The notes under the pieces are model-generated. The model did no database searches, had not been told where the DNA came from, and saw only the letters and a program-made list of their open reading frames with translations. The translations under genes and the position numbers were made by a program. Source: an uncultured bacterium (GTDB lineage Bacteria > Planctomycetota > UBA1135 > UBA2386). From it: 7,694 bases of DNA. Below are positions 1,583-7,694 of this stretch, in pieces. How positions within the stretch are numbered: the stretch's first letter is position 1; each line of letters starts with the position of its first letter. Location of the stretch: positions 1-7,694 of the forward strand of contig CALKYL010000076.1 of assembly GCA_938003515.1 (NCBI GenBank). Reading direction: 5' to 3'.

Positions 1583-1643
1583 CGCGGCGGCGGCGTCCGG
1601 ACCGAGGAACGCGAACGCGCCGGCGAGCGCGTGCTCAGCAAGA

Positions 1644-1678
1644 GAGCGACGGCCGCTCGCCGCGATGCACCGATCGCG
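1644..1678. terminator. Possible bidirectional terminator hairpins between convergent genes
   Basis: Two adjacent inverted repeats lie between the convergent stop codons. CGCGAT (1661-1666) pairs with ATCGCG (1673-1678) around a 6-nt loop and directly abuts the protease stop codon. GAGCG (1644-1648) pairs with CGCTC (1654-1658) around a 5-nt loop. Neither has a T-tract, so a classical intrinsic terminator is not proven; position and convergent gene order are the main support. Confidence 0.3.
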
Positions 1679-2608
1679 TCACTGGATGACGAAGGTCGTG
1701 ACCGGCGACGTGTCCTCGACGATCTCCGGCAACGCCGGGTCGAGCGACGCGACGGCGCTGTGCACGACGAAGCCGGAGAGCCACGGCAGGTTCGGCAGCG
1801 TCAGGCTCGCGGTCGCGCGGCCGTCGGCGGCGTAGGTGCCGGCGAAGCCGGGCAGGCCGAGGCTCCACTCGGTGACGACGTCGAAGCCGAGCTCGAAGAC
1901 CTTGAGCGGCCCGACGGCCACCGTCGCCGGCGCCCCGGTGACGGACAGCACCGCGAGGTAGTCCGCGCCCGGGTGGTAGACGTCGACGAACTCGAACGTC
2001 ATCGTGCCGCCGGGCGTGATGTTGCCGCCGACGACGACTTCGTTGGTCGCCGCGTTGCGGCGGTTGACCCACGCCAGCGCGAATGGCTCGCTCGAACCGA
2101 GGAACTGCTGGCTCTGCAGGCGCACCGTGTAGTCCCCGGTGAACGGCGGCACGAACTGCACGATCTCGAACGGGTTGAACTGGCTCGCCGAAGCGGCCAC
2201 CAGCGTGGTGCCGAACCACACCGTCATGTCGAGATCCATCTGCAGCACGCTGGTCGAGTAGCTCGAGTCGGCGAGCGAGAACCAGACGCCGCAGACCCGC
2301 GTCTCGTCGTTGGCGACCAGCGGGATCGTCACTTCGTGCACGCCCTGCACGAAGGACGCCGGGGTCAACGTCGTCGTGTAGAGCTGCCCCCGCACCAGCG
2401 CCGAGTGCGACGCGGCCGCGTTGATGTGGCCGGTTCCGTCGCGGTCGCTGAGCACCGCTGCGCCCTCGACGTTGTGGAACGCGCCGGCCATGAGCAGCGC
2501 CCGGACCGCCTCCGGCTGCGCCTCGAGCGCGCTGTCGGTCTGCGCCAGCAGCGCGGCGGTGCCGCACGTGACCGGCGAGGCGTAGGACGTGCCCGTGCCG
2601 ACGTTGCC
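1679..2608 (-). CDS. C-terminal part of the interrupted S8 protease (Ser motif plus beta-rich tail)
   Basis: This is the continuation of the protease frame after the second TAA. It opens with GNVGTGTSYASPV, the catalytic-serine motif, then the closing helix of the S8 domain (TCGTAALLAQTDSALEAQ), then beta-rich sequence including FTGDYTVRLQS, similar to a pre-peptidase C-terminal type jelly roll, and a last module (LGLPGFAGTYAADGRATASL ... VTTFVIQ). The first in-frame ATG is at 2489-2491, which lies after the serine, has no signal peptide and no suitably placed ribosome site; the nearest GGAGG is about 17 nt away. Independent translation to a useful product is therefore unlikely. An annotator might report 1679-2491 as a hypothetical protein. 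Confidence 0.45.
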   Translation of the reverse strand, partial: GNVGTGTSYASPVTCGTAALLAQTDSALEAQPEAVRALLMAGAFHNVEGAAVLSDRDGTGHINAAASHSALVRGQLYTTTLTPASFVQGVHEVTIPLVANDETRVCGVWFSLADSSYSTSVLQMDLDMTVWFGTTLVAASASQFNPFEIVQFVPPFTGDYTVRLQSQQFLGSSEPFALAWVNRRNAATNEVVVGGNITPGGTMTFEFVDVYHPGADYLAVLSVTGAPATVAVGPLKVFELGFDVVTEWSLGLPGFAGTYAADGRATASLTLPNLPWLSGFVVHSAVASLDPALPEIVEDTSPVTTFVIQ

Positions 2609-2617
2609 TTAGCGTTA
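2609..2617 (-). other. Double in-frame stop (TAA CGC TAA) inside the protease catalytic domain
   Basis: On the minus strand the codons read GCC TAA CGC TAA GGC. They separate ...GYDPDA from GNVGTGTSYASPV. From the first TAA to the final TGA is exactly 312 codons, so no frameshift is involved. Dropping the nine bases would join DPDA directly to GNVGTG, giving a plausible subtilase sequence. The stops sit in a small T/A-rich island in an otherwise very GC-rich gene. Confidence 0.9.
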
Positions 2618-3844
2618 GGCGTCGGGATCGTAACCGGTATTGCCGGTGCCGCAGGCGGCGACCTCCGGCTTGTCGTGTCCCTCGATCGGATTCACCCAGC
2701 TGGACGACGACGCCATCGTGTCGTCGTTCCAGTCGTGGTTGTTCTGGTCGACGGCGTTGCCGGACGACGTCATGTTGTAGCCGCAGCCCGGCGTCGTGAC
2801 CTTGCCGTCGCCGTTGCCCTGGTTGCCGCAGGACTTGAACATCATCACGGCGAAGTGGCGGATGATGTAGTCGAAGTAGCGGTCCAGGAACCGGATCTCG
2901 CCCTTCTGCCCGTTCCACCACGAGCAGTTGCCGAAGCTGATGCCCTGGTTCATGCCCCACGCCCACGCCTGCGGCGCGACGCTGTCACCGGCGCCGCCGT
3001 AGCTGTACAGCTGGGTCAGGCCCGGCGCCGCCCCGGTGTTCGGGAAGTGGGCGCTGCAGACGATGCCCGCGACCGCGGTGGCGTGCGACGCGACGTTGGT
3101 CGACGAGCCCTCGATCACCGGCGGCAGATAGGGGTTGTTCGGCGAGACCGCGGCGGTGTCGTTGATCAGGACCTTGACGCCCGCGCCGTCGTAGCCGCGC
3201 CGATGGACCACGTCCGTGCGCGCGGTCTTGCTCGCCCAGTCGTTCCACATCGGCGACCCCTCGGGCTCCCACGTCGGCGAGGACCAGTACGCGAGGTCGA
3301 CGTCCTCGCGCAGGGCCAGCGCACGCACCTGTTCGGCGGTCCCTCGCACGAACACGATCGGCGTGATCGTGTCGACGTGCACGACCGCCGCGCCGACGGC
3401 GCGAGCGGCCGCCGCGAACGCCGCGTTGCCGGGCTCGACGAACTGCTGCGCCGTCGCCAGCGCGAGGCGTCGGGCGTCCTCGGCGGCCATCCCGGCGGCG
3501 CGACCCGAGTCGATCGTCGAGCGCAGGTCGGGCATCGCCGCCGGCGCGACCAGCCAGAAGGCGACTTCGTGCGGACCGCCGAGCGCGAGCTTCTCGATCA
3601 GCAGCGAGTCGAGCTTGCCGTTCGCCGCGTCGCGCGCGCCGATCGCGAGCTGCTTCACCAGCACCGGATCGACGAGCCGGCCGCTGCCGTCGCGCGTGAC
3701 CCGCTCGATGCGGCCGGTCGCCCGGTCGAGGATCCGTTCCTCGCGTAGCGTCGAGCCGCTCCCCGGCATCGCGACTTCGGTTCGGGACAGGACCTCCTGG
3801 CCCTGCGGCAGGGCGATGGTTGCGAGGGATATCAGTGCGAGCAT
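2615..3844 (-). CDS. N-terminal part of the interrupted S8 protease (lacks the catalytic Ser)
   Basis: This is the part translatable from the ATG at 3844 to the first TAA (2615-2617): 409 residues holding the signal peptide, propeptide and the Asp, His and Asn motifs of a subtilase, ending GNTGYDPDA. The protein stops about 10 residues before the expected catalytic serine, so it would be inactive if it is stable at all. An automatic annotator would probably call this S8 family serine peptidase without noting the missing residue. The frame could be extended to a GTG at 3943, but the added residues look like untranslated leader. A product might still be exported and fold partly; there is no evidence that it has a role of its own. 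Confidence 0.55.
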   Translation of the reverse strand: MLALISLATIALPQGQEVLSRTEVAMPGSGSTLREERILDRATGRIERVTRDGSGRLVDPVLVKQLAIGARDAANGKLDSLLIEKLALGGPHEVAFWLVAPAAMPDLRSTIDSGRAAGMAAEDARRLALATAQQFVEPGNAAFAAAARAVGAAVVHVDTITPIVFVRGTAEQVRALALREDVDLAYWSSPTWEPEGSPMWNDWASKTARTDVVHRRGYDGAGVKVLINDTAAVSPNNPYLPPVIEGSSTNVASHATAVAGIVCSAHFPNTGAAPGLTQLYSYGGAGDSVAPQAWAWGMNQGISFGNCSWWNGQKGEIRFLDRYFDYIIRHFAVMMFKSCGNQGNGDGKVTTPGCGYNMTSSGNAVDQNNHDWNDDTMASSSSWVNPIEGHDKPEVAACGTGNTGYDPDA

Positions 3845-4010
3845 GGGATTCGTTGCGGGCAGGAGCGGAGAGCATAGCCCGCTGCCGGAGCCGATGCCGG
3901 CGGTCTCGCGGCCGCTCCGGCCTGGTTCGGCGTCCGGCCGCACACGGCGTGCGCATCAGCCACCGACGGGCGCGCGCTCCCGACTGCGCGGCGGATGCGG
4001 AACCGAGGCC

Positions 4011-4283: not shown

Positions 4284-4346
4284 CCCCTGTCCCGCATCCC
4301 CCGTTCCCAAGCCCGCACCCCGCCGCCAGCCCATGCCCCCCATCCC
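4284..4346 (-). other. G-run tract (G-quadruplex candidate) on the minus strand across the propeller gene start
   Basis: Nine runs of three or more C on the plus strand (at 4284, 4291, 4298, 4306, 4312, 4318, 4330, 4336 and 4344) are separated mostly by 2-4 nt. The minus strand therefore carries closely spaced G-runs meeting the usual G-quadruplex pattern several times over. The tract covers the leader and the first codons of the propeller gene, so the mRNA leader is C-rich and has no Shine-Dalgarno. Confidence 0.5.
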
Positions 4347-5532
4347 GCTCCCATTCCTCGGACTGCTGCTCGCCTCGTCGGCGCTCGCGCAGACCGTCTT
4401 TCCGCCCTTCAACAGCACCTACCAGATCGTCAACCTGGGTGCGGTGCCCGGGATCCCGGGCTACGGCGGCACCGCGTTCCTGCCTGGCAACCCCAATGTG
4501 CTGGTGGTCGCGCCCTACCCGGCGACGACGATCGTCGCGCTCCCGCTCGTGCGCGACGCGCAGGGCTACATCACCGGATTCGGCACGACGACGCCGGTTG
4601 CCACCGTCGGCGGCACGGACGGCGGGCTCGCGTACGGCCCGAACGGCGTGCTGTTCGCGACCTGGTACGGCCCGAACCGCCTGAGCCAGATCAAGCCCGG
4701 CAGTACGGCCGCCGACCGCGTCGACGACCTGGACCCGCTCGGGGTCTGGTCGACGGTCGGCACCTGCGCCTTCGTGCCGGCCGGTTTTCCGGGCGCCGGC
4801 CGCTGCAAGGTCATCAGCTACACCGCCAGCACCGTGCACGATCTGCCGCTGACCCCGGACGGCAACGGCACCTTCGCACCCGGCCCGGCCGGACCCGGCG
4901 TCCCGGTGGCCGGTTACCCCGAGGGCATGGCCTACGTGCCGCTGGCGGCGCCGTTGCTCGGCGGCAAGCTGCTGATCGCCGAGTGGAGCGCCGGCAACCT
5001 CGCCGCCTACGACATCGATGCCATCGGCAACCCGCTGCCGGCGTCGCGCGTGCTGGTCGCCGGCGGCGCGTTCGGCATCGGCGGCGGCGCGGTGGACCCG
5101 GTCAGCGGCGACATCGTGTTCCTCAGCAGCTCGCGAATGCTGCTGCTGCGCAACGGCGCGGCGTGCGGCACCTACACGAGCTACGGCCCCGCGTCGCCAG
5201 GCGCGCTCGCCACGCCGACGATCAGCGGCGCAGGCTGCGCACGCATCGGTCAGACGATCACGCTGACGACGACCGGCCCGAACAACGGCATCGGCGTGCT
5301 CGCGACCGGCTACCAGACCAACCTGCCGTTCCTCAACCTGACCGTGCTGCAGAGCCTCAGCGCGATCGTGGTCAGCATCCTCGACGGGACGGGGCAGGGT
5401 GCGCTGTCGCTGCCGATCCCGGTCAGTCCGACGCTCGGCAACAGCCATGTGTACTTCCAGGCGGCCTATTTCGACGCGTCGACGAGTTCGGGGCTGAGCG
5501 CGAGTGCGGGGCTGGACGTCCTGATCCGCTGA
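4333..5532 (+). CDS. Secreted beta-propeller-like protein with C-terminal beta module
   Basis: This encodes 399 residues from the ATG at 4333. I chose that start because a clear signal peptide follows at once (hydrophobic core FLGLLLASSALAQ, likely cut after Ala19); the same frame is open upstream to 3820 but that part lacks protein-like character. Residues 30-280 hold five repeats marked by a G-x-A-x-x-P type motif (GTAFLP 46, GLAYGP 98, TCAFVP 144, GMAYVP 198, GGAVDP 251) spaced about 46-54 residues, as in NHL or SMP-30-like propellers. The stretch PEGMAYVP ... LLIAEWSAGNLAAYDID recalls, from memory, a family common among PEP-CTERM exported proteins, but no PEP-CTERM tail is present. Residues about 300-399 (from GAGCARIGQTITL to SAGLDVLIR) form a separate beta-rich module. 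The role is unknown, plausibly extracellular or cell-surface. The leader has no Shine-Dalgarno. Confidence 0.88.
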   Translation: MPPIPLPFLGLLLASSALAQTVFPPFNSTYQIVNLGAVPGIPGYGGTAFLPGNPNVLVVAPYPATTIVALPLVRDAQGYITGFGTTTPVATVGGTDGGLAYGPNGVLFATWYGPNRLSQIKPGSTAADRVDDLDPLGVWSTVGTCAFVPAGFPGAGRCKVISYTASTVHDLPLTPDGNGTFAPGPAGPGVPVAGYPEGMAYVPLAAPLLGGKLLIAEWSAGNLAAYDIDAIGNPLPASRVLVAGGAFGIGGGAVDPVSGDIVFLSSSRMLLLRNGAACGTYTSYGPASPGALATPTISGAGCARIGQTITLTTTGPNNGIGVLATGYQTNLPFLNLTVLQSLSAIVVSILDGTGQGALSLPIPVSPTLGNSHVYFQAAYFDASTSSGLSASAGLDVLIR

Positions 5533-5934: not shown

Positions 5935-7694
5935 ATGCACTCCGACTCCATCAAGGGGCTTCTGCTCGTTTGCGCTGCCGTGTCCGCCGCTCTCCCGGGG
6001 CAGACACCTGCAGCTGCGGGCGACGCCCGCGCACCGATCCGATGCGACCGCGACGGCACGCTCCGCGTCGAAGGCGCGAGGCACCGGGCGACGTTCACGC
6101 CCGCCGGAGCGTCGCTCTCGACGCCGCAGGACGGCGATCGCTCGGACGAGTCGACGCTGCTGCTGCGCCTGCTCGGCCTTCGCCGCGGCGACGCCTTCGT
6201 CGCCGCGTCCGATCGGCCGCAGCCGATCGCCTCGGTCGCGGCCGTGCGCTACGACCACGCGTCGACCGTCGAACGATACGAGCTGCGCGCGAACGGCTTC
6301 GAGCAGACGTTCGAGTTCGCGACCGCGCCGGCCGGGGAAGGTGACCTGGTGCTGTCGATCGAGGTCGGCGGCAACGTCACCGCCGACGCCACGCCGGCGG
6401 GCCACCGGACCCTGACGTTCTTCCGCGACGGTCATCCGGTGATCGACTACGGCGAGGCGTTCGCGTTCGACCGCGCCGGGCAGCGCGTTCCGGTCGAGAC
6501 GTCCTACGACGGCTTGGGCCGCATCGAACTGACCGTGGCCGCCGCCTTCCTCGACTCGGCCCGCTACCCGATCGTCGTCGACCCGGTGGTCAGTCCGATC
6601 TTCAACCCGAGCGGCCTGTCCACCAACGACACCCTGCCGGACGTCGCCTACGACCGTCACACCGACCGGTACGTCGTCGTCTGGCAGCGCAACGCCAGCT
6701 TCTTCGACCGGCAGATCCACGCCAGGATCTACAGCAGCACCGGCAGCGTCCTGACGCCGGTGATCCCGGTCACGACCGGCGGCGACAACCAGTTCGCGTC
6801 GGTCGCGGCCAGCAACGGCAGCGTCCCCGGCTTCATGGTGGTCTGGCAGGGCAACGACCGCATCTGGGGCCGCCAGTACGACCTCGGCGGCAACCCGCTG
6901 AGCAACGCGTTCCCGCTCAGCCTGCCCGGACCCGGCGTGCGAGACCGCCGCCCGTGCATCTCCGGACCCGGCGACGGCGCGATGATGGTCGCCTGGGACC
7001 GCACGCCGCAGGGCGCCAACGACCCGACCTCGATCATGATCCGCGACGTGTACTGGCAGCTGCCCGGGGCCTCGGGCTCGGTCACGATGGGCGGCGAACG
7101 CGCGCTGCACAGCGTCACCGCTGGCTACGTGCAGAACGTGAAGCTGGCGCGCAGCGACGTGACGGTGACGGTCGGCGGCCAGTCCTGGTACGCCAACCGC
7201 GCCGTCTGGGAGCGCTACTACACGGCCACGTCCGACTTCGACGTCGTGACGGCGGCCTTCCGGTTCCGCCATCCATCCGGCTTCCAGCCCATCGGCAACC
7301 TGACTTCGATCGGCCTCATCGGCCCCGACGAACGCTTCCCCGACATCGCCGCGCTCGCCTCGCAGCGCCAGGATCCGAACGACCTTCAGTACTGCGTGGT
7401 CTGGCAGGACGACCTCGACATCTCGGCCCTCTTGTTCGATCTGAACGGCTCGATCAGTGCCCCGATCACGGTGCGAGCGTCCGCGGCAGCAGAGGTCAAA
7501 CCGGTGGTCGGCGCCGGGCACTGCGAGTTCACGGTCACCTACGGCGAGGTCACCGGCAGCGGCAACCAGGCCATCGACCTCTACGCGGCGCGCATCCTGC
7601 CCTTCGGCTCGGTGCCGCTCGACCGGCGCGTCGTGCGCAACCCGGGCAACCTGCTGCAGACCGTGGATCGCGTCTCGTTGCGACCGATCCTGCC
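5935..7694 (+). CDS. Secreted VVW-repeat (beta-propeller-like) protein, 3'-truncated
   Basis: The frame is open for 586 codons from the ATG at 5935 to the right edge without a stop. The start is supported by a signal peptide (SIKGLLLVCAAVSAALPG, cleavage near residue 22-28) and a weak CGAGG about 11 nt upstream. Residues about 35-219 resemble the N-terminal module found in large secreted repeat proteins of myxobacteria and planctomycetes (seen here: YELRANGFEQTFEF, then GEGDLVLSIEVGGNVT, ending ARYPIVVDPVVSP). From about 230 the protein has repeats of roughly 45-70 residues centred on a VVW-like strand: VVVW 247, MVVW 301, MVAW 351, RAVW 422, CVVW 487 and a weaker FTVTYGE 532. Most are followed by a second strand of the type IHARIYSSTG or ISALLFDLNG. 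This suggests propeller blades. The function is unknown, probably extracellular binding or structural. It begins 402 bp after the propeller gene, so cotranscription is uncertain. Confidence 0.88.
   Translation, partial: MHSDSIKGLLLVCAAVSAALPGQTPAAAGDARAPIRCDRDGTLRVEGARHRATFTPAGASLSTPQDGDRSDESTLLLRLLGLRRGDAFVAASDRPQPIASVAAVRYDHASTVERYELRANGFEQTFEFATAPAGEGDLVLSIEVGGNVTADATPAGHRTLTFFRDGHPVIDYGEAFAFDRAGQRVPVETSYDGLGRIELTVAAAFLDSARYPIVVDPVVSPIFNPSGLSTNDTLPDVAYDRHTDRYVVVWQRNASFFDRQIHARIYSSTGSVLTPVIPVTTGGDNQFASVAASNGSVPGFMVVWQGNDRIWGRQYDLGGNPLSNAFPLSLPGPGVRDRRPCISGPGDGAMMVAWDRTPQGANDPTSIMIRDVYWQLPGASGSVTMGGERALHSVTAGYVQNVKLARSDVTVTVGGQSWYANRAVWERYYTATSDFDVVTAAFRFRHPSGFQPIGNLTSIGLIGPDERFPDIAALASQRQDPNDLQYCVVWQDDLDISALLFDLNGSISAPITVRASAAAEVKPVVGAGHCEFTVTYGEVTGSGNQAIDLYAARILPFGSVPLDRRVVRNPGNLLQTVDRVSLRPIL

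Follow-up and report, generated by a model that had tools for sequence, protein, structure and literature searches.

Two in-frame stop codons ahead of the catalytic serine of a subtilase gene lie within a short non-homologous patch

When two stop codons precede the codon for the nucleophile of a protease, does the interruption belong to the organism or to the sequence record? This question is raised by contig CALKYL010000076.1 of assembly GCA_938003515.1, whose 7,694 nucleotides (nt; hereafter the window) carry on the minus strand a gene for an S8 (subtilisin-like) serine peptidase, or subtilase, with two TAA codons shortly before its catalytic serine. A preliminary description of this locus regarded the gene as otherwise intact and proposed a very recent inactivation, an assembly or read error, or a recoding event. 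Comparison with homologues turns this apparent recoding candidate into a localized non-homologous patch of 36 nt, which replaces a conserved loop and contains both stops. We consider it probable, on sequence comparison, that the patch reflects faulty assembly or consensus in a single contig and that the real gene of the organism would be intact.

The subtilase frame runs from an ATG at 3844 to a TGA at 1679-1681 (1679..3844, minus strand; 721 codons plus TGA) and contains exactly two internal stops, the TAA at codon 410 (2615..2617) and the TAA at codon 412 (2609..2611). Its upstream open part (codons 1-409, 2618..3844; 442 codons if begun from a GTG at 3943) holds Asp229, His254, and Asn341. 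The downstream open part (codons 413-721, 1682..2608) begins GNVGTGTSYASP and includes Ser420, encoded by TCC at 2585-2587, eight codons after the second TAA. These four residues, which we take to be catalytic from the family motif, all lie in one minus-strand frame, and 309 open codons separate codon 412 from the TGA. The preliminary description had placed the stops and motifs in the same way and counted about 310 open codons. The catalytic serine is excluded from conventional translation products, with stops at codons 410 and 412 and the longest conventional open reading frame (ORF) of the downstream part (1679..2491, minus strand; 270 amino acids (aa), ATG start; P0081 in the protein database, from a 7694-base contig) starting at 2491, past the serine. 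The upstream part of the subtilase was absent among the 15 matches of one protein database search.

Homologues were searched with a query carrying X at both stops, scoring being limited to the 7996 candidates that had most words in common with it. The search returned 76 homologous proteins, the best of which covers the whole query at 73% identity; seven of the corresponding rows carry source names, all S8 or S8/S53 peptidases of Planctomycetota or Planctomycetes. Since homologues align from end to end, both before and after the stops, the subtilase frame is one gene and not a chance arrangement. The read-through frame matches PF00082 (45.3 bits versus a cut-off of 21.8; E 9.3e-12), and the upstream and downstream parts taken separately fail the cut-off (0 families; 18.7 bits). 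Among the 76 homologues, the column of Asp229 holds D in 71, E in 3, and a gap in 2, that of His254 H in 74 and a gap in 2, that of Asn341 N in all 76, and that of Ser420 S in 75 and I in 1. The preliminary description had asked whether homologues normally encode the downstream part as a gene of its own, and the relatives contradict this by carrying both parts in one open frame. Relatives at E 1e-50 or better occur in 27 of 154 genomes from one order, that of a relative genome. Of the 31 matches listed for these 27 genomes, 29 extend across the site and none has an internal stop. Viral contigs and plasmids yielded no relative of the gene. Judging from these relatives, the host is presumably a planctomycete.

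The alignment of homologues across the junction, which the preliminary description had recommended, established that the stops are private to the window copy, but also that the disturbance is wider than the stops, covering codons 401-412 (2609..2644, minus strand). In close relatives, the segment ahead of the serine reads ACGT-TITTTTTASPWI-GAQ-GTGTS or similar, versus ACGT-GNTGYDPDA*R*-GNV-GTGTS in the window (asterisks being stops), so that a conserved Thr-rich loop is replaced. T403 is common to 49 of the 76 homologues and G401 to 19, and the other ten residues are each found in 0-4. Because their residues rarely match those of relatives, the nine codons preceding the first stop belong to the abnormal patch as well. 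Its edges are uncertain: the left one may lie at codon 402, and the right one may extend to codon 415, since N and V at codons 414-415 are also rare (2/76 and 5/76). In ungapped DNA comparisons with eight relatives, only 6-8 of the 36 positions are identical, versus means of 9.5-9.8 for shuffled sequences and 27-36 among the relatives themselves. Against the relatives' profile, 211 of 300 shuffles were as good as the patch in ungapped alignment, and 111, 85, and 120 of 300 at three gap settings. Because the patch resembles relatives no more than shuffles do, the stops are not simply two point mutations in a normal loop. The loop length (T400-G416) is nonetheless unchanged and is the commonest of the family: 15 residues in 59/76, with 14 in 8, 16 in 4, 13 in 2, 12 in 2, and 38 in 1. 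To describe the gene as intact apart from two stops is therefore incomplete: the rest of the gene is like its relatives, but the stops belong to a non-homologous segment of constant length.

Two observations concern the same site. One homologue, P0072 (476 aa, from a 2052-base contig; 1/76), loses similarity in the same loop from about residue 415 and is unrelated in sequence from there to its C-terminus, a hint that the loop may be a weak spot. On the opposite strand, the patch encodes a hydrophobic stretch in one frame that is too short for use.

Outside the patch, the gene resembles intact relatives and there is little sign of further decay. A profile scan in sliding segments (710 positions) against 27 of the 76 homologues gave its strongest outliers at starts in codons 398-409, with scores down to -1.40 versus 4.13 for the lowest of the 27. 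The gene scored under the lowest relative at 71 of the 710 positions. Of these, 47 lie outside starts 389-414, with a largest deficit of 0.60; five relatives treated likewise had worst deficits of 0.57, 0.26, 0.85, none (+0.02), and 0.04. Among seven copies compared, that of the window has the most private changes (45 upstream, 38 downstream). The share of these at codon positions 1+2 is 0.62 upstream, the second highest of the seven, and 0.61 downstream, compared with 0.29-0.64 and 0.39-0.75 in the six relatives, a test weakened by high silent differences. Pairwise differences of both parts from the six relatives resemble the relatives' own, except for two upstream pN values (0.239 and 0.242, to L004 and L005) just over the relatives' maximum of 0.231. 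A longer branch would explain the excess of private changes and pN, and slight relaxation would also fit.

The searches for a source of the patch yielded no donor. Within the window, the patch shares only one 10-mer with other sequence, and the best outside match in 58 fetched loci is 13 nt. No match was found in Escherichia coli genomes; alignments did not exceed 24 bases in nine plasmid records (E 2 or more) and 22 in 12 phage records (E 3 or more). Viral contigs contained no exact 26-mer, and the 154 genomes of the order no 27-mer at up to three mismatches. An inverted, reversed, or complemented normal loop was rejected by a local-score test that compared the segment 2600-2644 (45 nt) with the relatives' profile and in which 21, 143, and 108 of 200 shuffles were as good as the reverse complement, the reversed, and the complementary sequence, respectively. 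In forward orientation, 8 of 200 shuffles were as good, a score slightly better than most shuffles that is suggestive. The best gapped path contains a short shared stretch at a 13-nt offset, but two compensating 13-nt indels are unsupported, as 111 of 300 shuffles were as good in the global gapped test. A repeat hotspot was likewise discarded, the Thr-rich half at up to three mismatches giving 34 matches in eight genomes versus 40 for the reversed control, and so was a diversity-generating retroelement, the window containing the patch only once.

An error in the contig is favoured over a genuine replacement because the length is constant and no donor was found. The locus would then represent an ordinary S8 subtilase gene from a planctomycete-like bacterium, recorded incorrectly in this one contig over about 36 nt just ahead of the codon for the catalytic serine. 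A technical cause is most likely, and the unchanged length would fit either an error of the substitution type or a gap filled to its estimated size. In favour of this reading, the patch is private, being present in none of the 76 homologous proteins. Unclustered frame breaks validated by BLASTP are expected to be sequencing errors and not genuine indels, according to PMC3711429, which deals with frameshifts and would apply to the patch by analogy only. Several points weigh on the other side. The metagenomic origin of the contig is probable but itself deduced. The normal loop is single-copy in 8/8 relative genomes, so that no genomic repeat is evident as a cause of misassembly. Three common sequencing adapters match the patch and its flanks over at most six bases in a row. 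Finally, each stop was scored -4 in the profile scan, which enlarges the deficit at the patch.

A genuine and very recent inactivation is the alternative that survives best, although we regard it as the less probable explanation. Template switching, illegitimate recombination, or error-prone repair would have exchanged about 36 nt, and the product would be an inactive protease cut short at 409 residues (442 with initiation at the GTG, 3943). Taken as written, the sequence would indeed confer no protease activity, because the product lacks the nucleophile on which the family depends. The patch is, after all, present in the sequence as given, and the scant decay elsewhere agrees with a recent event, as would the private changes and slightly raised upstream pN if they reflect slight relaxation and not a longer branch. 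Unrelated DNA would readily bring in a stop: among 20,000 simulated 12-codon blocks of patch composition, 33.5% contained at least one, though at least two were found in 5.7%, which makes two stops in 12 codons moderately unusual even for random DNA of this composition. The G+C content of the patch (55.6%) is also lower than that of the gene (70.3%), and the patch lies within the gene's lowest-GC3 stretch, but other 36-mers of the window go down to 50%. Similarly, the patch is flanked by two copies of GGCAA spaced 36 nt apart, but comparable pairs are common: 257 of 682 codons have an identical 5-mer pair with a spacing of 27-48 starting near them, and 11 of 2125 positions have one with a spacing of exactly 36. 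With such mechanisms, the zero net change in length would be a coincidence, and the searches of the window, the 154 genomes, and the other collections revealed no donor. Of the three explanations first proposed, inactivation and assembly or read error thus remain, and recoding is poorly supported (see below).

Much less probable is a functional divergent loop that later acquired its two stops by point mutation. Such a loop would account for a length equal to the commonest in the family, but none of the homologues has a similar one and six close relatives show no private change there. Two independent TAA codons arising one codon apart, with no other clear decay, would also be unlikely.

Recoding, whether by readthrough, by use of TAA as a sense codon, or by ribosome bypassing of the patch, appears very improbable, since the conserved loop is not recovered whether the ribosome reads the patch or skips it. 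Readthrough would yield GNTGYDPDAxRx in its place, and skipping 12 codons would leave three residues where 75/76 relatives have 12-16, the exception being P0072, in which the frame is lost. The patch, moreover, replaces sequence instead of adding to it, and no homologue shares it. Neither an Rfam family nor a tRNA gene was found, three stretches gave no unusual fold (z -0.65, -0.41, and -0.72), and no in-frame ATG, GTG, or TTG lies between the stops and the serine. As for a ribosome bypass of 36 nt between GGC codons 401 and 413 of this chromosomal gene, which would shorten the protease loop by 12 residues, it is barely conceivable: the matched GGC codons are of a kind common in the gene, the bypassed stretch is not extra relative to homologues, and the first stop, codon 410, comes nine codons past GGC 401 and not directly after the take-off codon.

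Some homologues are themselves irregular. P0049, from a 7759-base contig and 83% identical over 47% of the query, leaves the family from about residue 342, in its C-terminal part, and continues into a region with precomputed Pfam hits, which we take to be kelch repeats; it looks like a frameshift. P0086 and P0088 are homologous to the downstream part only, and their initial Met falls close to the serine motif or beyond it. P0086 begins MAGSASP where some relatives have GTSSASP, and both may be contig-end fragments or broken copies. In the window, two further long open frames overlap the subtilase, one on the opposite strand (1631-3748, plus) and one in a different frame (1635-2966, minus); they are expected at 72% G+C and give no evidence of genes. 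Plus-strand ORFs at 2-1582, 4333-5532, and 5935-7692 flank the subtilase. For each, searches of Pfam (E up to 1) and of NCBIfam (E up to 0.1) returned 0 families, and tblastn at 1e-8 gave no match within the 58 fetched loci.

The locus itself is of little biological importance, but it illustrates that the residues just ahead of a premature stop should be compared with the family before recoding is proposed. With the S8 peptidases of Planctomycetota (PF00082; e.g., P0001), the gene shares full-length homology, the catalytic residues, and the C-terminal region; these relatives have an unbroken frame and the Thr-rich loop where the window copy has the patch. The best solved relatives by profile are PDB 1wmd, presumably KP-43 (E 2.3e-22; profile positions 246-590 aligned), and SubHal, 5fax (E 3.2e-21; profile positions 246-589), both intact enzymes distant from the window gene. 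The likeness to T4 gene 60 bypassing, as outlined in PMC5009743, consists of a stop-containing stretch flanked by two like Gly codons; unlike that system, the window has no extra insert, no stop next to the take-off codon, and no conservation. A further comparison is with the singleton interrupted genes of prokaryotic genomes covered in PMC3711429: whereas those are frameshifts and the window has an in-frame exchange, in both cases the break is found in a single member of the family.
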